A DNA stretch of 64,000 nucleotides, taken from an uncultured Bacteroidia bacterium. GTDB taxonomy: Bacteria; Bacteroidota; Bacteroidia; Bacteroidales; UBA932. Numbering within the stretch: the first letter of the stretch is position 1; each line of letters opens with the position of its first letter. The position numbers and the translations under genes were made by a program. The notes under the pieces are model-generated. The model was not told the origin of the DNA. It saw only the letters and a list, made by a program, of their open reading frames with translations, and did no database searches. Of this stretch, positions 10,726 through 56,924 are shown in pieces. Location of the stretch: positions 124,001 through 188,000 of the forward strand of contig CADAAA010000005.1 of NCBI GenBank assembly GCA_902785785.1. Direction: 5' to 3'.

Positions 10726-11577
10726 CTACGGAATAATCTTATCGACGTTCAGCACCAGAATACCCTCTGCTCCAATCGCCTTCAGCTGTCTGATCTTGTC
10801 CCAAAGGTCAGCCTCGTCGACGACCGAGTGCATGGAGCACCAGCCCTCCGCAGCAAGCGGCATCACGGTAGGGCTTCTCATGGCCGGCAGTATCTTGACC
10901 GCCTCCTCGACCGAAGCCTGAGGGAGGTTCATCAGAAGATATTTCTTGCCCCGGCTGACCTTGACGGAATCCAGCCTGAACTGGATCTCCTCGAGGAGTT
11001 TGCGGTCCTCGTCCGTCAGCCCGGGCCCGGCAATCAACACGGCCTCGGACCAGAACACCTTCTCGACCTCCTTCAAACCATTGGACACCAGAGTGCCGCC
11101 CGAAGAAACGATATCGAAAATCGCGTCTGCGATGCCCGCAGCGGGAGCTATCTCCACCGAGCCGGTGATGATCTCTATCTTTGCATCTATCCCGTTTTCA
11201 GCCAGATACTTCCTAAGGATGTTGGGGTAGGAGGTAGCGATGCGCTTGCCGTTGAAATACTGCGGCCCGTCATACTCCTCAGCCTTCGGGATAGCCAGGC
11301 TGATGCGGCATCCGCCGAATCCCAGCCTCTCGACTATCTCCACATCGACACCCTTCTCCTCGACCTCGTTAAGGCCGACGATACCCAGGGATGCGGTGCC
11401 GGAGGCGACGACCTGCGGGATGTCATCGTCGCGCATATAAAGGACTTCCAGCGGGAAGTTTGCGGACTGCGAAAGGAATTTGCGTTTCGAATCGTCCACG
11501 GAGATACCTATCTCCTGGAACAGCGCGGTGCTCTCTTCGTTCAGCCTTCCTTTGGACTGAATGGCTACTCTAAGCAT
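10726..11577 (-). CDS. hisG: ATP phosphoribosyltransferase, long form
   Basis: First and feedback-regulated step of histidine synthesis. The 283 residues are the long HisG type: two catalytic lobes starting MLRVAIQSKGRLNEES, with the PRPP-binding region DIVSSGGTLVSNGL, then a C-terminal ACT-like regulatory domain (about 205-283) that binds histidine. First structural gene of the operon; the leader peptide and attenuator lie upstream at 11593-11757, so both allosteric and transcriptional control by histidine are expected. Confidence 0.96.
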   Translation of the reverse strand: MLRVAIQSKGRLNEESTALFQEIGISVDDSKRKFLSQSANFPLEVLYMRDDDIPQVVASGTASLGIVGLNEVEEKGVDVEIVERLGFGGCRISLAIPKAEEYDGPQYFNGKRIATSYPNILRKYLAENGIDAKIEIITGSVEIAPAAGIADAIFDIVSSGGTLVSNGLKEVEKVFWSEAVLIAGPGLTDEDRKLLEEIQFRLDSVKVSRGKKYLLMNLPQASVEEAVKILPAMRSPTVMPLAAEGWCSMHSVVDEADLWDKIRQLKAIGAEGILVLNVDKIIP

Positions 11578-11592
11578 AACTCAACAATAATC

Positions 11593-11620
11593 AAAAAAAG
11601 CCTACCACCGAATGGTAAGC
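11593..11620 (-). terminator. his attenuator: intrinsic terminator before hisG
   Basis: On the minus strand GCTTACCA and TGGTAGGC form an 8-bp stem (one G-U pair) with a 5-nt loop, followed at once by seven T residues. It stands 16 bp before the hisG start. The 5' arm can instead pair with AATGGTAGGCC just past the leader peptide (11 bp, one G-U), so terminator and antiterminator are mutually exclusive. Confidence 0.85.
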
Positions 11621-11681
11621 CGCTTATTCTACACTACTCTTCTCACGCACACCCGGGCCTACCATTACCTTTCGGAATGGT
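11621..11681 (-). promoter_or_regulatory. his leader switching segments (pause and antiterminator hairpins)
   Basis: In transcript order: segment 1 ACCATTCC (11681-11674, over the last His codon), segment 2 GGTAATGGTAGGCC (11669-11656), segment 3 GGCTTACCATT (11621-11611), segment 4 TGGTAGGC (11607-11600). 1 pairs with 2 (8 bp, one bulge), 2 with 3 (11 bp), 3 with 4 (terminator). A ribosome stalled at the His codons would cover segment 1 and favour 2-3, allowing read-through into hisG. Confidence 0.8.
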
Positions 11682-11718
11682 GATGATGTCCCAGTGTTGT
11701 ATGTGCGTTTCTACTCAT
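11665..11718 (-). CDS. hisL: histidine leader peptide
   Basis: A 17-codon frame, MSRNAHTTLGHHHHSER then TAA. Five of 17 residues are histidine, four of them consecutive (codons at 11688-11677), immediately followed by the alternative hairpins and a terminator. This is the arrangement of classical his operon attenuators. It starts about 8 nt downstream of a putative -7 element, so the leader would be translated from the very 5' end of the mRNA. It is too short for usual gene callers. Confidence 0.85.
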   Translation of the reverse strand: MSRNAHTTLGHHHHSER

Positions 11719-11726
11719 AACTTTCG

Positions 11727-11757
11727 CTAAGTTAATTAAATTTTTTTAATATCCAAA
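11727..11757 (-). promoter_or_regulatory. putative his operon promoter
   Basis: On the minus strand TTTG (11757-11754), a 19-bp spacer, then TAACTTAG (11734-11727), one mismatch from the Bacteroidetes -7 consensus TAnnTTTG. Transcription would start next to the leader ATG at 11718. Confidence 0.5.
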
Positions 11758-11856
11758 CGATTCGCCCTAAAAATCATCCCTCCCGTCCCGTTCCCCACCT
11801 CTCCCCACGACAAATCCCCCCATTTTGCTTTTCACCCGCCCTTTCAGCCTCCTCTC

Positions 11857-12087
11857 GCGCACGTTTTCGCCAAATTCGTGCGCATGCACCGCAAAAAGTG
11901 CCCTCCCGCGCACGTTTTCGCCAAATTCGTGCGCCATCTTCCCCAAAAACGCCACTTCGCGCACGTTTTCCCACTTTTCGTGCGCATGCACCGCAAAAAG
12001 TGCCCTCCCGCGCACGTTTTCGCCAAATTCGTGCGCGAACGCCATGAAAACCGCCTGTTCGCGCACGTTTTCCCACTTTTCGTGCGC
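11857..12087. repeat. palindromic array, family 1, left arm (five units, exact 51-bp period)
   Basis: Five 27-bp units, GCGCACG-N13-CGTGCGC with perfect 7-bp arms, start at 11857, 11908, 11959, 12010 and 12061, exactly 51 bp apart. The 13-nt loops are of two kinds (TTTTCGCCAAATT, TTTTCCCACTTTT). The 24-nt spacers are related, and spacers 1 and 3 are identical. The array ends 12 bp from the stop codon of the RAYT-like gene and is inverted relative to the array on the other side. The 51-bp unit leaves several frames open in multiples of 17 codons, but none looks like a protein gene. Confidence 0.92.
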
Positions 12088-12098
12088 GAGAAAGGCGA

Positions 12099-13043
12099 TC
12101 AGCGCATGTCCGGAAAAACCGAGTCGATCAAGGCACGGTCCAAACGAAGTATTCGAGCGACCTGTTTATTGTTAGCGTGGTAATCGAAATGCAACGTTTT
12201 CGCAAGTTCAATCTTCATGTCGGTCGTGAGCAGGGAAGTTGACCGCACATTATATTCAGAATGGCATTTCGAAAGTACTATCGAATACAGCTCATCATCA
12301 GTGAAACAGACACTGCTTCCCAGTTCGGAGGAAATTGTTTTCTGGCTCTCTACATCCCGCGATAGTTTATAGAAGTATTGTCGGGCATCCCGAAATAGTC
12401 GCTCAGTCGTCTCAATCTCGCAAAATCCTATCGGAGAAGCATATCCGGATACCATACTCAATCCCGCATACATGTCAAGCGATCTGGTTTTGAAAATCCG
12501 TCTGATCTCCTTGACTGTCAGCTTGATTGAAGATGAGTCGTGGAAACCTCTGAGCTCGGGGTTGAAGAAAAAGCGATTCGCGCCCCACGGGTAGCTGAAT
12601 GGAGTCACTGAGGGATTGACCAGATAGCCGTTGCGGTTGTTGTATACAATGACTGTCCGAAGATCATTAAGGTCAGCAATTTCCCTGAGTTGACACTCCC
12701 ATGATGACAGGTCGACCGGACGACCGATGCCGTGCAGATAGCCGGAGAGGTGTTTCCCATACATCCTGAAAAACGCGAGAATCCGCTCCCTTAGCCCTGT
12801 GAGTGTAGCATGAACATGGTTTGACATCAGCTCAAAGGTCAGAATCCTTACATCCGGGAATGCTTTTGAACAAATAGCCATCAAAGTCATCCCAGCCTTG
12901 AAATCATCCTCCGTGGCGAAAATGATCTCAAACTGCTCCGGTGTGTAAAGATGCCAGCATTGACCAAGTTCCCGAAACAGCAATTCGCTCCTGGTTTCCG
13001 ATTCCTTCAAGGAGCGCGTTGGTAGTTGAATGAAGTTTTTCAT
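12099..13043 (-). CDS. REP-associated (RAYT-like) HUH/Y1 transposase with C-terminal helix-turn-helix
   Basis: A 314-residue Y1-transposase-family protein (start ATG at 13043). The HUH metal motif is SNHVHATLTG with H76 and H78; the likely catalytic tyrosine is Y134 in RTVIVYNNRNGYLV, aligning with the Y..NP.+AG motif of RAYTs; YPWGANRFFF follows. The last 45 residues (LAKTLHFDYHANNKQVARILRLDR) look like a DNA-binding helix-turn-helix. It is clearly paralogous to the gene at 24480-25412. No IS ends are seen; instead both sides carry inverted arrays of the same palindrome, as for RAYTs, which are single-copy domesticated nucleases acting on REP hairpins. Activity on these arrays is inference. 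Confidence 0.85.
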   Translation of the reverse strand: MKNFIQLPTRSLKESETRSELLFRELGQCWHLYTPEQFEIIFATEDDFKAGMTLMAICSKAFPDVRILTFELMSNHVHATLTGLRERILAFFRMYGKHLSGYLHGIGRPVDLSSWECQLREIADLNDLRTVIVYNNRNGYLVNPSVTPFSYPWGANRFFFNPELRGFHDSSSIKLTVKEIRRIFKTRSLDMYAGLSMVSGYASPIGFCEIETTERLFRDARQYFYKLSRDVESQKTISSELGSSVCFTDDELYSIVLSKCHSEYNVRSTSLLTTDMKIELAKTLHFDYHANNKQVARILRLDRALIDSVFPDMR

Positions 13044-13054
13044 AATGCATATAG

Positions 13055-13080
13055 TTTTCGTCGGCAATATGCGACGAAAA
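13055..13080 (-). promoter_or_regulatory. perfect inverted repeat in the RAYT-1 leader
   Basis: TTTTCGTCG and CGACGAAAA (9-bp arms, 8-nt loop) stand 12 bp before the RAYT-1 start codon. It could be an operator or a translation-blocking mRNA hairpin. Just upstream (13081-13132) are repeated AAAGATA elements, including the 12-bp palindrome AAAGATATCTTT. Confidence 0.55.
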
Positions 13081-13132
13081 AAGATACTTTTCCTCTAAAA
13101 AGATATCTTTCTGCTTCAGGGATATCTTTTTT

Positions 13133-13414
13133 GCGCACGAATTTGACGGAATCTTGCGCGTAAGGGCGATTTCGGGAGCATCGGCGCACGAAATGGGCGA
13201 AAACGTGCGCGGGAGGGCGGTTTCGGGAGCATCGGCGCACGAAATGGGCGAAAACGTGCGCGAAAGGGTGGTTTTGGGAGCATCGGCGCACGAATTGGGC
13301 GAAAACGTGCGCGAAAGGGCGATTTCGGGAGCATCGGCGCACGAATTGGGTGAAAACGTGCGCGGAAGAGCGGTTTTGGGAGCATCGGCGCACGAAATGG
13401 GCGAAAACGTGCGC
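13133..13414. repeat. palindromic array, family 1, right arm (six units, exact 51-bp period)
   Basis: Units start at 13133 (degenerate), 13184, 13235, 13286, 13337 and 13388, each 27 bp and 51 bp apart. On the + strand they read GCGCACG-AA(A/T)TGGG(C/T)GAAAA-CGTGCGC, the reverse complement of the left arm, so the RAYT gene lies between inverted arrays. The 24-nt spacers are near identical (ending GGGAGCATCG). Confidence 0.92.
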
Positions 13415-13482
13415 GAGAGGGGTGGCGGGGGATGAGAGGGTGAAAATGGCGGGGAGGAGGGAGAGGAGTTGGGTAGGGAGGG

Positions 13483-14592
13483 TTAGCCGATGAGCCATTT
13501 GTGGCCGGGGAGGAGGGAGAGGATCTTAGCGGTGATGGCGCAGCAGAGGAAGGTCAGCAGGGCGATGAGCGGGATGGCTAGGAAGACGGGGACTGCAGGG
13601 GAGGCTGCGTCGCCGCCAATGATGAGGTTGGAGATGGGCACAAGGTAGAAGATGTGCATCAGGTACATGCCGAAGGACAGCTTGGAGAGGGAAGTGACCA
13701 GAGAGGGCGCCTTTTCCTGCCGTATGCAGGAGAAGACCAGGAAGAGACCGAACGTGGCGAGAAGGACATTGGGGGTGCAGAACTCCCAGGACCATTCGAC
13801 TATAGGCGTGGAGATGGCTTCTCCCGGGACAGCCTTCATCCAGAAGGACCAGCCCGTGAAGATGGCGCCGACGATGAAGCTGAGCCATCCTACGGTGAGT
13901 TTCTTGCTGCGGGACCAGTCGAGATGGTAGCGGATATAATGAGCCACCACGAGATACCCCAGATATCCGGAGAAATACCAAAGCGTATGGAACCTGTTCC
14001 AGAAGCATTCTCCCCACACCTCCGGCGTGATCCAATGGTGGATCCACGGGATGAAGGTCGATGCAACGAACAGCCAGATGAACACCCTTTCCTCCCGCGC
14101 CAAGGATCTCTCAAGCCAGGGCGAAACGACAGGGATGATCAGGTACAGTCCGATCAGCGGGTACATGAACCAAAGATGCCCCGCCATCGACGGGAAATTG
14201 AGCGGCAGCATCTTCAGGTCAGCTGCCGCCTGCCCCCAGTCCATCCAGCCGAAAAGGGGAGGGAGGACGATATAAAGCAGCAAGAAGATAATCGTCGGAG
14301 GAAGAACCCTCGTAAAGCGCCTGCGGTAGAAGCTACCCATGGTCTGCCCGGGCTTCAGCGGCACGAGAAGGAACGCCGACACAATCATGAAAAGCGGCAC
14401 GCAAGTCCGCGCTACCGTACCGTCATAGAATGACACCCAGAAGCGCGTAGTCTCGTCGGGCAGCAGCGAATAGTGTCCGACGAGCCCGGCGGCGCTGCCG
14501 GAATAGAAACATTCGCTGGCATGGACCAGCATCACAAGGAAACACGCGACGACGCGGATATAGTCGATGAATACGATTCGCTGCTCTTTCAT
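13483..14592 (-). CDS. acyltransferase family 3 membrane protein (OafA/YrhL type)
   Basis: Integral membrane O-acyltransferase of 369 residues with about ten hydrophobic segments. It opens with the family pattern RIVFIDYIRVVACFLVMLVHA, with the conserved histidine at the end of the first membrane helix, and has a second block RRRFTRVLPP. Such enzymes acetylate or succinylate surface glycans or lipids; the substrate is unknown. The start is the ATG at 14592, because a TATATTTG -7 box (14618-14611) lies between it and the longer ORF start. Monocistronic by context. Confidence 0.82.
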   Translation of the reverse strand: MKEQRIVFIDYIRVVACFLVMLVHASECFYSGSAAGLVGHYSLLPDETTRFWVSFYDGTVARTCVPLFMIVSAFLLVPLKPGQTMGSFYRRRFTRVLPPTIIFLLLYIVLPPLFGWMDWGQAAADLKMLPLNFPSMAGHLWFMYPLIGLYLIIPVVSPWLERSLAREERVFIWLFVASTFIPWIHHWITPEVWGECFWNRFHTLWYFSGYLGYLVVAHYIRYHLDWSRSKKLTVGWLSFIVGAIFTGWSFWMKAVPGEAISTPIVEWSWEFCTPNVLLATFGLFLVFSCIRQEKAPSLVTSLSKLSFGMYLMHIFYLVPISNLIIGGDAASPAVPVFLAIPLIALLTFLCCAITAKILSLLPGHKWLIG

Positions 14593-14610
14593 GGCGGTGA
14601 GGGTTATGTA

Positions 14611-14618
14611 CAAATATA
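14611..14618 (-). promoter_or_regulatory. -7 promoter element of the acyltransferase gene
   Basis: TATATTTG on the minus strand, about 18 bp upstream of the ATG at 14592; no convincing -33 TTG is seen. It argues against the upstream in-frame start. Confidence 0.5.
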
Positions 14619-16013: not shown

Positions 16014-16142
16014 ATGAACAATTCCCGCCTTTCTGTTCATCCGCCGCAGTATTCTCCACGAATCTGAACAAATAACCCCCGATTTGTTCAGATTCCGCCC
16101 CTTTTCCTCCAAATCTGAAGGATTCGGCTCCCTTTGTTCAAA
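16014..16142. repeat. family 2 palindromic repeats, three dispersed units
   Basis: Unit 1 is ATGAACA-N13-TGTTCAT (16014-16040). Unit 2 has 13-bp perfect arms AATCTGAACAAAT / ATTTGTTCAGATT (16061-16094). Unit 3 is degenerate (about 16112-16142, TCTGAAGG...TTTGTTCA). Their TGAA cores are 49-51 bp apart, matching the array beside RAYT-2. Region 15951-16013 holds only the MATE promoter. Confidence 0.75.
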
Positions 16143-24479: not shown

Positions 24480-25412
24480 TTAACGGCCAGAAAGAAACAT
24501 CGCCCTAAGTATATCACGGTCAACGCGAAGGATGCGCGCTATCTGTTTGTCCGTGGCGTTGTATTCAAAGTGCATTCTTCGCGCCAGCGCCAGTTTAGCG
24601 TCGCTCGGCAGGGCAGACGGTTTGCCGATGCCATAATCCTTTCGGCAAATCGAGACGATTGCGGCAAACAATTCGTTATCCGTGTAGTAGACCAATTCAC
24701 CCAATTCAGCAGCAATCTTCCGTTGTCCTTCGACATCGCGTGAAATCAAGTGGAAATAATGATGTCCGTCCCGGTAAAGCGCCATCGCAGCAGTGATATC
24801 ACAGAATACGATTGGAGAGATATATCCATCTACCACATTCAATAAAGCCATGTGGTCGAAAGCCCCGCTGTGAATGACGTTCCTGATCTGCCTGACAGTC
24901 AGCTTTTCCTTGCTGTGGCTGTGCCACGAAACCGCATCCTGATTGAAGAAAAAACGGTTGGTTCCCCATCGATAGGTGAACGGCGTTTCATCGGGATCGA
25001 CAAGGAAACCATTCCTGTTCGTATAGGCAATCACAGTGCGCAGATAATCAAGGTCTTCTATAGCATTGAGCTTCTCCTCCCATCTACTCAGATCTACCGT
25101 CCTGCCGATACCCTTCAAATACATTTGCAAGCGATGCCTGAACATATGAAAGAAAGCGCAGCAGTCATCCTTCTTTCCGGATAGCGTAATATGTAAATGG
25201 TTGTTCATCAGCTGAAAAGCCAGAATCTTGATTCCCGGAAAAGACATGGCACACAAAGCTATCAAGAGCATTCCCACCCTGAAGTCATCGTCCGTCACGA
25301 ATATAATTTCAAAGTTCTCAGCCGTATAGAGATGCCAGCATGGCGAAAGTTCTCTGAACAAGGTCTCGCATCTCGCCTCTTTTTCCGCGAATGTGTAACG
25401 AAGTGTAGTCAT
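24480..25412 (-). CDS. second REP-associated (RAYT-like) HUH/Y1 transposase
   Basis: A 310-residue paralogue of the gene at 12099-13043, collinear throughout. The HUH motif is MNNHLHITLSG (H72, H74); the probable catalytic tyrosine is Y130 in RTVIAYTNRNGFLV; TYRWGTNRFFF and the C-terminal helix-turn-helix region (RRMHFEYNATDKQIARILRVDR) are conserved. A TACATTTG -7 box lies at 25431-25424, 12 bp before the ATG. It is flanked on both sides by palindromes of family 2, which differ in sequence from the palindromes around RAYT-1. The matched enzyme-repeat pairing suggests specificity, which is inference. Confidence 0.85.
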   Translation of the reverse strand: MTTLRYTFAEKEARCETLFRELSPCWHLYTAENFEIIFVTDDDFRVGMLLIALCAMSFPGIKILAFQLMNNHLHITLSGKKDDCCAFFHMFRHRLQMYLKGIGRTVDLSRWEEKLNAIEDLDYLRTVIAYTNRNGFLVDPDETPFTYRWGTNRFFFNQDAVSWHSHSKEKLTVRQIRNVIHSGAFDHMALLNVVDGYISPIVFCDITAAMALYRDGHHYFHLISRDVEGQRKIAAELGELVYYTDNELFAAIVSICRKDYGIGKPSALPSDAKLALARRMHFEYNATDKQIARILRVDRDILRAMFLSGR

Positions 25413-25525: not shown

Positions 25526-25689
25526 CAGAATGTTCAGATCATAAGCCGATAACCATTCTTCTGAACAAAACGCGCTGAAATGTTCATTCTAAGAGGAATG
25601 AGCCGAGAAAATGAACAAAAGCATATCGTTTTGTTCAGAATTCAAGAATAAAACCGCGATTCTGAACAGAAAGGGCGTCTACGTTCAGA
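25526..25689. repeat. family 2 palindromes upstream of RAYT-2 (degenerate)
   Basis: Units at about 25560 (TCTGAAC...GTTCAT), 25610-25639 (ATGAACAAAA...TTTTGTTCAGA) and 25661-25689 (TCTGAAC...GTTCAGA), spaced 50-51 bp, plus a half unit ending TGTTCAGA near 25538. They are more diverged than the array on the other side. Region 25440-25500 carries AAAAAGAT/TATCTTTTT elements like those upstream of RAYT-1. Confidence 0.7.
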
Positions 25690-54554: not shown

Positions 54555-54614
54555 GTAACACGTCCTGAATTGAGGTCGTTTTTTACTCTATTTGACTCCG
54601 AGTACGCCACTCTC

Positions 54615-54740
54615 GAGCACAAATTGCCTTGTTTTGTGCTTCCTGTGCTACGAAATACCTTCTCCGAGCACAAATGACCCCATTTTGTGCTTCCTGTGCT
54701 CCAAAATGCCTTCTCCGAGCACAAATAGCACATTTTTGTC
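54615..54740. repeat. palindromic array, family 3, left (three units, exact 51-bp period)
   Basis: AGCACAAA...TTTGTGCT units start at 54616, 54667 and 54718, 51 bp apart (25-bp core, 8-bp arms in the first two; the third is decayed). Spacers contain CTTCCTGTGCT and CCTTCTCCG, related between units. The rest of 54555-54782 shows nothing else. Confidence 0.85.
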
Positions 54741-56549: not shown

Positions 56550-56655
56550 TCATCACGGATCCTCCGATTGCACCTATGGCGATGAAAATGGTAAGTATTT
56601 TCAGGAGTGTTTTCATATCACAAAGATAGAAGAAATAACTCGCAATCTATCTTCC

Positions 56656-56895
56656 GAGCACAAAACCTCCCACTTTGTTCTTTCCGTGCTCCGAGAAAAC
56701 GTTCTTGAGCACAAAAGAGGCTGTTTTGTGCTTCCTGTGCTCAAAATAGTCATCTCCGAGCACAAAACCTCCCATTTTGTTCTTACCGTGCTCCGAAATA
56801 CCGTCTCCGAGCACGAGAGAGGCCGTTTTGTGCTTTCTGTGCCCCAAATAGTCGCTTCCGAGCACAAAACCTCCCATTTTGTTCTTCCCGTGCCC
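56656..56895. repeat. palindromic array, family 3, right (five units, exact 51-bp period)
   Basis: GAGCAC units with AGCAC starting at 56657, 56708, 56759, 56810 and 56861, 51 bp apart. Two unit types alternate: odd units AGCACAAAACCTCCCA...TTGTTCTT..CCGTGC, even units AGCAC(A/G)A(A/G)AGAGGC.GTTTTGTGCTT.CTGTGC, a 102-bp higher-order period. Same orientation as the array at 54615. Long 17-codon-repeat frames through it are not convincing genes. Confidence 0.88.
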
Positions 56896-56924
56896 TATAT
56901 TTCCGCAAAAGATCGTCGTCCTGA

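Follow-up and report, generated by a model that had tools for sequence, protein, structure and literature searches.

What kind of element sets a single gene between two inverted arrays of one palindrome, each on a strict grid, and does the gene belong with the repeats that surround it? The question is raised by a stretch of 64,000 nucleotides from an uncultured Bacteroidia bacterium of the gut, in the order Bacteroidales (GenBank GCA_902785785.1, contig CADAAA010000005.1, positions 124,001 to 188,000), referred to here as the window. The genome to which it belongs, G000, is an assembly of 2.36 Mb in 12 contigs, in which the window is C5:124001-188000; other G numbers denote further genomes (G462, G004, G427, G288, G545 and G008 being relatives) and L numbers denote loci. 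The locus in question is made up as follows, in positions of the window:

11857 to 12087, forward strand: left array of five exact 27-bp palindromes GCGCACG-N13-CGTGCGC at 51-bp pitch, starting at 11857, 11908, 11959, 12010 and 12061
12099 to 13043, reverse strand: gene for a 314-residue Y1/HUH-like enzyme, with an ATG at 13043 and a TTG start at 13067 also open
13133 to 13414, reverse strand: right array of one degraded unit (13133) and five exact units (13184, 13235, 13286, 13337 and 13388), inverted with respect to the left array

A preliminary description of this DNA had reported five units on the left and six on the right on a strict 51-bp grid with the right array reversed. This was confirmed, with a start-to-start distance of 51 bp between neighbouring units inside each array and with the sixth unit of the right array, at 13133, found to be degraded (GCGCACG...CTTGCGC). 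The reverse complement of the left array matches the right array at 75% over 237 nt, and the best 70-bp match between the two scores 0.81 in inverted and 0.54 in direct orientation. Between the stop codon of the gene and the left array there are 11 bases (12088-12098), and the right array starts about 90 bp upstream of the ATG. The exact pattern GCGCACG-N13-CGTGCGC has 15 sites in the whole of G000, ten of them in these two arrays, and a reversed control pattern has none, which excludes chance as the origin of the arrays. The five remaining exact sites lie at two places, three at C3:172734-172964 and two at C12:34828-34905, which are arrays of seven and four units on the 51-bp grid when degraded units are counted by eye; the stretches inspected around both places revealed no member of the enzyme family.

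We consider it probable that the locus is a cassette of the REPtron or REPIN kind without a GTAG foot, that is, a divergent Y1/HUH enzyme associated with repetitive extragenic palindromes (REPs), surrounded by palindromes private to it and sharing with its relatives one pitch that is kept across unrelated palindromes. Two features of REPtrons are present: the gene is flanked by its own palindromic repeats and copies of these occur elsewhere in the genome. The spacing that marks REPINs is present too, two REPs standing at a distance specific to their type, and such pairs may have been dispersed as units. In REPINs the two REPs are also inverted and form one long hairpin; of the three doublets from here whose folding is described below, one folds in that way and two do not.

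The shared pitch was established on loci of related enzymes taken from the top of similarity lists, mostly from one genus and often with one to three per genome. In 13 of the 127 loci the flank on one side was cut by a contig end to less than 300 bp. Two loci are duplicates (L125 of L026, L032 of L027), with the same or identical protein and flanks on contigs of equal length, and were dropped from all counts on 125 loci; L032 was kept in the 101-locus count below and in the flank and orientation counts, L125 in a set of 25 loci, and both in the Mantel test. For 101 loci, a duplicate among them, exact 8-mer direct repeats in the 450 bp to either side were sorted by distance. A distance of 51 was found in 33 upstream and 45 downstream flanks and distance 52 in 19 and 19, and distance 51 was never found inside the enzyme genes; regions 800-1300 bp away showed it in fewer loci (13), not in none. 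Among 25 loci added afterwards, again with a single duplicate, 18 showed distance 51. An automatic palindrome caller placed a pair at 49.4-53.1 bp in 93 of the 125 distinct loci, with at least three palindromes in 70, whereas nine control windows of equal width held 0-3 loci each (0-2 with at least three palindromes) and five rounds of mononucleotide-shuffled flanks gave 0 loci. The spacings called were 51 (174 pairs), 52 (60), 50 (27) and 53 (6), and the enzyme tree shows no more than modest clustering of pitch, with 20 changes where shuffling gives 27.5. Exactly two palindromes were present in 66 of 111 gridded flanks. Left and right flanks, compared at 69 loci, are direct in 39, inverted in five including the window, and ambiguous in 25. 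As doublets and direct flanks are the commoner condition among the sampled relatives, the inverted, many-unit form in the window is a minority variant.

Enzymes and palindromes are also associated with each other beyond the window. At 43 of 90 loci, palindromes with one and the same six-base arm flank the gene left and right; when flanks were swapped between loci this number averaged 2.1 and never exceeded 8. Palindrome similarity follows enzyme similarity over up to 94 loci (Mantel r 0.278; largest of 999 permutations 0.057). Twelve pairs of enzymes are at least 70% identical (one pair being a duplicate) and nine of these reach the threshold of arm similarity; among the exceptions L090/L096 and L090/L081 share sequence in another register, and L047/L148 stays below the threshold. 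Enzymes less than 60% identical have mostly unrelated arms, with at most 14% of pairs at the threshold. At the level of sequence these results support a cognate relation between each enzyme and its own palindromes.

The same arrangement recurs several times within the one genome. Searches of G000 gave nine members of the enzyme family at E <= 0.01, the window enzyme included, and a profile gave 11 at E <= 1e-5, the query included. Palindromes were inspected at eight of these, leaving out the member at C1:216621 and the two found by the profile, and six of the eight have a palindrome of their own on a near-identical grid: GCGCAC (the window), GTGCTC..GAGCAC, CTGAAC..GTTCAG (at 50 bp), AAGCAC..GTGCTT, GTGCGG..CCGCAC and TAGACGGTCCA..TGGACCGTCTA. 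A grid of about 51 bp was not found at the other two, L024 and L025. By eye, L024 has longer similar flanks in direct orientation (1150-1510 and 2340-2700), perhaps another type of end in a paralogue without the grid, and L025, a distant paralogue, has CTTGTACA/TGTACAAG motifs to either side (1406-1506 and 2496-2621) with a spacing that differs from the grid.

Palindromes of these types are also scattered through G000, away from any cognate enzyme. Counts were made genome-wide for five types with exact arm patterns, so that they are lower bounds and may hold chance matches; the patterns for the four types other than that of the window specify one palindrome only and assume no spacing. There are seven GTGCGG, 33 GTGCTC, 35 CTGAAY and 14 AAGCAC sites, with 1, 0, 0 and 0 for the reversed controls. 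Where two neighbouring sites that are not beside their cognate enzyme lie within 400 bp of each other, the distance between them is 50 bp in all 10 cases for CTGAAY and 51 bp in all five for AAGCAC; for GTGCTC the distance is 51 bp in 14 of 15 (nine of the 14 from one array) and 102 bp in one, and for GCGCAC 51 bp in two of three and 153 bp in one. GTGCGG has no neighbours within 400 bp away from its enzyme. Most doublets are intergenic, between convergent, tandem or divergent genes, as judged by eye from the reading frames of 19 stretches with short overlapping frames discounted. Judged from their sequences, the doublets appear to have kept their spacing while their linkers diverged largely, not wholly. 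At one of these places (G000:C6:35381-36675; L183 1882-3176) two similar CTGAAC doublets with related linkers bracket a gene for an SBF-family transporter.

The place of the window cassette was searched for in four relatives (G427, G288, G545 and G462). The neighbours of the cassette, named from Pfam, are a gene for HisG (10726-11577) on one side and one for an acyltransferase (13483-14613) on the other; in G427 and G288 these two genes directly adjoin each other, leaving an empty site from which a block of 1.7 kb is absent:

11763 to 13480, no strand: block absent at the same place in G427 and G288, borders drawn by eye and good to about 10-20 bp

This empty site in two relatives indicates that the cassette comes and goes. 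Only the HisG gene was seen at this place in G545 (56% complete). In G462 the HisG gene is followed by a different enzyme, 57% identical to that of the window and 91% to that of L031 in G004; the two 91% alike enzymes have CGAACA palindromes in common, which in G462 stand at 51 bp, and L031 likewise lies beside HisG. No match to the acyltransferase gene was found beside the G462 enzyme. On the enzyme tree the window enzyme is sister to L019, L031 and the G462 enzyme together (support 100/93). Most simply, the HisG site would have held an older CGAACA cassette, for which the GCGCAC cassette was substituted in G000 as a whole, arrays and enzyme alike; alternatively, cassettes may have been inserted independently at this place beside HisG as a favoured target. 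A four-unit GCGCAC array, orthologous to the orphan array on C12 (96% over 2.8 kb), is retained in G462, although a DNA search of the G462 assembly (85% complete) found no close copy of the window gene. Repeats can outlive the enzyme or lie apart from it.

A second place at which relatives can be compared is downstream of purA (adenylosuccinate synthetase), where G000 and G462 (96% identical over the stretch) share three palindromes at the same positions. Between them 1 of 42 arm positions, 7 of 37 loop positions and 4 of 50 linker positions have changed; at the orphan array on C12 the corresponding figures are 1 of 54, 3 of 52 and 2 of 72, too few to tell; rates of loop and linker change rest on these two orthologous sites. 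At the purA site the first palindrome of G427 reads AGGCAC..GTGCTT (one mismatch) where G000 has GGAACA..TGTTCC, and the same intergenic place in G288 holds two GGGAAT..ATTCCC palindromes, the first with one mismatch, 50 bp apart. By eye no such doublet was found at the purA site of eight more relatives and G008, where the neighbouring gene may differ; several of these carry a single longer hairpin.

The window protein itself looks like a divergent Y1/HUH enzyme. Residues H76, H78 and Y134 are invariant in all 12 aligned family members, the two histidines in an NHVH-type motif and the tyrosine inside a predicted helix, and by comparison with known families they would form the HUH/Y1 active site. 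The model (predicted local distance difference test (pLDDT) score 88.8, predicted template modelling (pTM) score 0.78) has as its top Foldseek match 4er8, a structure of Escherichia coli TnpA-REP in complex with a REP hairpin (prob 1.00, TMt 0.58, E 2e-3), with 12% sequence identity in the structural match. The TnpA transposases of ISDra2 and IS608 follow among lesser matches, and no match at all, 4er8 included, is at or below E 0.001. Among the 12 members the Pfam profile Y1_Tnp matches four (best 9.8e-5) and the NCBIfam profile REP_Tyr_transpos (NF047646) five (best 1.6e-9). PDB sequences searched with the family profile A1 gave five matches, the best at E 0.24 and none of them a nuclease or transposase. 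Complete aligned members are 286-321 residues long and have a long C-terminal extension. The ratio of non-synonymous to synonymous substitution rates (dN/dS) is 0.07-0.18 in five of six close pairs of enzymes, the sixth being synonymously saturated and the window enzyme being in none, which indicates that enzymes of the family are kept by purifying selection.

The family is large and, among the sampled genomes, confined to one family of Bacteroidales. At E <= 1e-5 it is present in 88 of 101 genomes of the genus, with up to 14 matches per genome, and in the family sample matches at E <= 1e-20 were obtained from 184 genomes out of 248, belonging to 10 genera out of 20. The order sample (119 genomes from 112 genera) gave two matches, both from the genus of the window and one of them G000 itself, and a tblastn search of plasmid records gave no match at E <= 1e-3.

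The preliminary description had seen in the locus an expanded, phased REP array with a cognate enzyme like the REP-associated tyrosine transposases (RAYTs), possibly a structural, mRNA-3'-end or nucleoid-level system rather than a transposon. The invariant HxH and tyrosine residues, the fold match and the NCBIfam matches of individual members support the RAYT-like HUH enzyme; the phased, REP-like array is likewise upheld, and the arm found on both sides of the gene and the tracking of enzyme by palindrome speak for the cognate pairing. The last part, that this is not a transposon, is not borne out, given the empty site in two relatives. It had also suggested searching relatives for GCGCACG-N13-CGTGCGC, to see whether the repeat keeps company with this clade of enzymes. 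Over the 101 genomes of the genus the pattern was found in five, as an array in G000 alone: 15 sites there and one or two in each of four others, isolated and with unrelated loops. To this extent the expectation held; G462, which lies outside that sample, is a partial counter-example. The reversed control pattern was found in 10 of the 101 genomes, once 13 times, and as the reverse of a palindrome is itself a palindrome these matches may be another palindrome type.

Much of this has precedent. RAYTs with private REPs, doublet spacings specific to the type, arrays beside RAYTs and atypical structures without GTAG in Bacteroidetes are all already known, as far as the sources cited here describe them (for REPtrons and REPINs see also PMC8049555). 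The REPINs and RAYTs of Pseudomonas fluorescens SBW25 have been described as doublets of fixed spacing with a less conserved spacer, a RAYT for each type, arrays beside the RAYT and doublets scattered between genes (Bertels and Rainey 2011, PMC3116915), and doublets, private palindromes, arrays beside the gene and scattered doublets are found here too. In that account spacing is 71 or 110 bp according to type, whereas here 50-53 bp is common to many unrelated palindromes, and REPs there number in the hundreds, whereas in G000 there are 7-35 exact copies for the five types counted, and nine or more enzymes. From Bacteroidetes itself comes subclass 2.6 of the TnpA-REP proteins (RAYT group 5), Y1 enzymes flanked by 'atypical secondary structures' without GT[AG]G of which copies exist elsewhere (Quentin et al. 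2018, PMC6006769). The present family resembles it in host phylum, in the Y1-like enzyme, in flanking structures without GT[AG]G and in copies elsewhere, but subclass 2.6 has a median length of 179 residues against 286-321 here with the long C-terminal extension, the Pfam profile Y1_Tnp from which that set was built misses the window protein, and the text consulted there gives no pitch to set beside 50-53 bp. TnpA-REP of E. coli (4er8) is the best fold match and is likewise a single enzyme bracketed by REPs, with a GTAG foot that is essential there (PMC8266576) and not enriched here. It is also shorter (165 residues in the chain) and only distantly similar in sequence. More generally, the GT[AG]G hairpin foot that defines the canonical REPtrons (subclasses 2.2, 2.4, 2.5, 2.7 and 2.8) is not a mark of the palindromes described here.

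What differs from these systems is the pitch of 50-53 bp common to dozens of unrelated palindromes, the nine or more members in one genome, the proteins of about 300 residues outside current profiles, and the fact that close relatives hold different pairs of enzyme and palindrome at a single site. No description of a pitch shared across unrelated palindromes was found in the open-licence PubMed Central literature searched, supplements lying outside its scope, and in the REP systems compared here, as far as those sources go, a near-constant pitch over unrelated palindromes is a geometric constraint without parallel. This clade bears on the open question of how RAYT enzymes recognise their repeats and why the repeats persist. 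It offers many natural pairs of enzyme and palindrome with shared geometry and private arms, several of them within a single cell, so that the residues of specificity and the role of the spacing could become readable by comparison and by swaps. If the enzymes are active, such pairs might serve as orthogonal enzymes for joining single-stranded DNA.

As a mechanism for the REPtron-like cassette, we suggest that the unit recognised and copied would most likely be the doublet, with palindrome centres 50-53 bp apart. Each enzyme lineage would recognise arms of a sequence peculiar to it, in many cases built on one shared scaffold of arm, A-tract and GC-rich centre, and would insert or copy doublets between genes, probably through cleavage and joining of hairpins in single-stranded DNA, the way in which TnpA-REP of E. 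coli works. Doublets beside the gene may then expand by slippage or unequal exchange into arrays of 51 or 102 bp periodicity such as those of the window. Higher-order repeats of 102 bp are present in some arrays, which suggests growth by doublet steps.

Several observations weigh against the proposed cassette. A gridded pair was not called at 32 of the 125 loci, a few of them through contig ends (two loci without a called pair, L027 and L029, show about 51 bp by eye). The GT[AG]G foot shows no enrichment: of 424 palindromes 39 have it, whereas shuffled windows gave 54. Recognition of a hairpin on one strand might leave a bias towards G.T over A.C mismatches, and the strand test gave none (41 against 32 loci, 20 equal, p 0.35). 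The window protein matches nothing in Pfam or NCBIfam at E <= 1, and the NCBIfam scores of its relatives, where bits were seen, reach at most 37.8 against a cut-off of 80. Since the curated cut-offs are missed, which is a limit of the profiles and not a biochemical criterion, we speak of proteins that are Y1/RAYT-like by fold and motif. Linker identity between distinct sites is 0.48 for CTGAAY (seven sites) and 0.51 for AAGCAC (four), against 0.32 and 0.31 when shuffled, so that the exact spacing of the scattered doublets is partly due to descent; with six bases trimmed from each end the values are 0.455 against 0.365 for CTGAAY and 0.375 against 0.328 for AAGCAC, the latter difference not being significant. 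The two orphan sites that were compared have not moved between G000 and G462. At the purA site of G427 (82%; L204 against L195) the second palindrome is 51 bp from the third, but the first gap is 42 bp, not 52, a difference of about one helical turn.

A related possibility, to which we give roughly one chance in five, is a system of several addresses, in which a RAYT-like clade with nine or more members in G000, six of them with their own palindromes, works on a common rigid geometry of half-sites about 22 bp and palindromes 50-53 bp apart, nearly on one helical face, the doublet being recognised as a unit, perhaps on duplex DNA, and sites being rewritten from one address to another while the geometry stays. 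It draws on the purA site, with AAGCAC palindromes in three species and GGGAAT in a fourth, and on the HisG site, where enzyme and palindrome differ together between close relatives.

Rather doubtful, though with more in its favour than those that follow, is a duplex operator system. Here the enzyme would have become, or would also be, a DNA-binding protein that reads paired half-sites and bridges two palindromes near one helical face, the doublets being regulatory or chromosome-organising sites and the upstream pair serving autoregulation. The anatomy of the palindromes suits this. In the 50-51-bp class (67 loci), mean pairing reaches 0.87-0.93 at a distance of 9-12 bases from the dyad and falls to 0.27-0.39 closer in, within 4 bases, and to 0.24-0.30 further out, beyond 18, which puts the half-sites of a palindrome about 22 bp apart; many consensus half-sites consist of arm, A-tract and GC-rich centre. 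(A seemingly near-invariant G 11 bases from the dyad, in 91% of 81 palindromes of span 27, was rejected when it fell to 40% with loci of the 50-51-bp class counted singly.) The helical repeat of DNA is 10.5 bp, so that 51 bp makes 4.9 turns, and the earlier suggestion of nearly five turns fits the pitch. Confinement to 50-53 bp with other spacing windows nearly empty and mismatches without strand bias also favour an operator, as does the position of the palindromes relative to the gene. In 65 loci one was called upstream, the nearest standing a median of 101 bp from the start codon, and in 80 loci downstream, the nearest then a median of 21 bp from the stop codon; 52 loci belong to both groups. 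Phase alone, on the other hand, would allow pitches of 39-43 or 59-63 bp, and these are not enriched (two loci each). The C-terminal part of the window protein, modelled alone, has low confidence in its first half and ends in a confident helical bundle, a point for the operator, yet a fold search with it gave nothing significant (best E 1.2; a helix-turn-helix-like DeoR match had prob 0.54 and E 2.2). The presumed catalytic residues are conserved, and single strands of the palindromes or doublets fold well in six of six cases (z -2.9 to -7.9), the doublet of L022 into one long hairpin and those of L183 and L195 into two separate ones, the palindromes being near-symmetric. Folded single strands and duplex half-sites are both candidates for what the enzyme reads, and the sequence geometry of about 22 bp and then 50-53 bp would suit a duplex binder too.

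An autonomous transposon of the IS200/IS605 kind, with the whole 1.7-kb cassette mobile and the hairpin doublets as its left and right ends, seems unlikely. Transposons of this group carry hairpins at both ends, and the family shares the Y1/HUH fold of IS608 and ISDra2. The empty site fits such an element, although it would also follow from loss in the two relatives, and flanks are oftener direct and, over the best 70 bp, 97-100% identical in seven loci, as single-strand transposition would allow. Unlike such transposons, G000 has no near-identical copies among the eight members compared pairwise; at 60% identity for the closest pair, no one of them can be a recent copy of any other. Palindromes are private to each enzyme lineage, doublets occur without the gene, and the window arrays are inverted.

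Less credible again, and already disfavoured, are neutral tandem repeats, with arrays and pitch inherited from one ancestral array and homogenised without function or any link to the enzyme. The 102-bp higher-order repeats and the linker similarity above shuffled values do speak of slippage and descent, but the arms change and the pitch stays across enzymes mostly less than 60% alike, palindrome tracks enzyme, and at the purA site arms have changed less than loops and linkers between two close species. That the arrays encode 17-residue protein repeats (51 = 3 x 17) is scarcely credible, since, although open reading frames cross the window arrays and one orphan array lies in frame within a long reading frame, the family also has pitches of 50, 52 and 53 bp and most orphan doublets lie between genes by inspection. 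The orphan array concerned (G000:C10:39608-40195; L186 1452-2984) has 11 exact GTGCTC palindromes in a 510-residue frame that the 51-bp pitch keeps open; the frame has a weak match to outer-membrane beta-barrels and adjoins a gene for an extracytoplasmic function (ECF) sigma factor.

Other readings of the window arrays gave little. An Rfam search of 11400-13900 found nothing at E <= 1, and a terminator scan found two terminator-like sites, neither on a palindrome of the window and their count no higher than in shuffles. Clustered regularly interspaced short palindromic repeats (CRISPR) were set aside by inspection, as the intervening sequences repeat within the arrays; cas genes were not searched for.

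The window also holds a second enzyme of the family with palindromes of its own, and orphan palindromes of other types:

24483 to 25412, reverse strand: second family enzyme, 310 residues, 51% amino acid identity
24059 to 24434, no strand: array of the second enzyme, eight palindromes CTGAAC..RTTCAG at 50-bp pitch (one gap 49)
25561 to 25688, no strand: other flank of the second enzyme, three palindromes of the same type, the outermost (25662) exact and two with one mismatch
16064 to 16091, no strand: orphan single palindrome of the CTGAAC type
54611 to 54740, no strand: orphan compound array in which AAGCAC-like palindromes are interspersed among those of the GTGCTC type, limits drawn by eye
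56651 to 56905, no strand: orphan compound array, GTGCTC at 51 bp (56686, 56737, 56788) with AAGCAC/AAGAAC-like palindromes between, extent by eye

In the compound arrays the AAGCAC/AAGAAC-like palindromes occupy the linkers of the 51-bp GTGCTC grid. At G000:C3:149699-149806 (L184 2200-2307) GTGCGG, GTGCTC and AAGCAC palindromes are found together, and as the first two are 51 bp apart the grid can join palindromes of different types.

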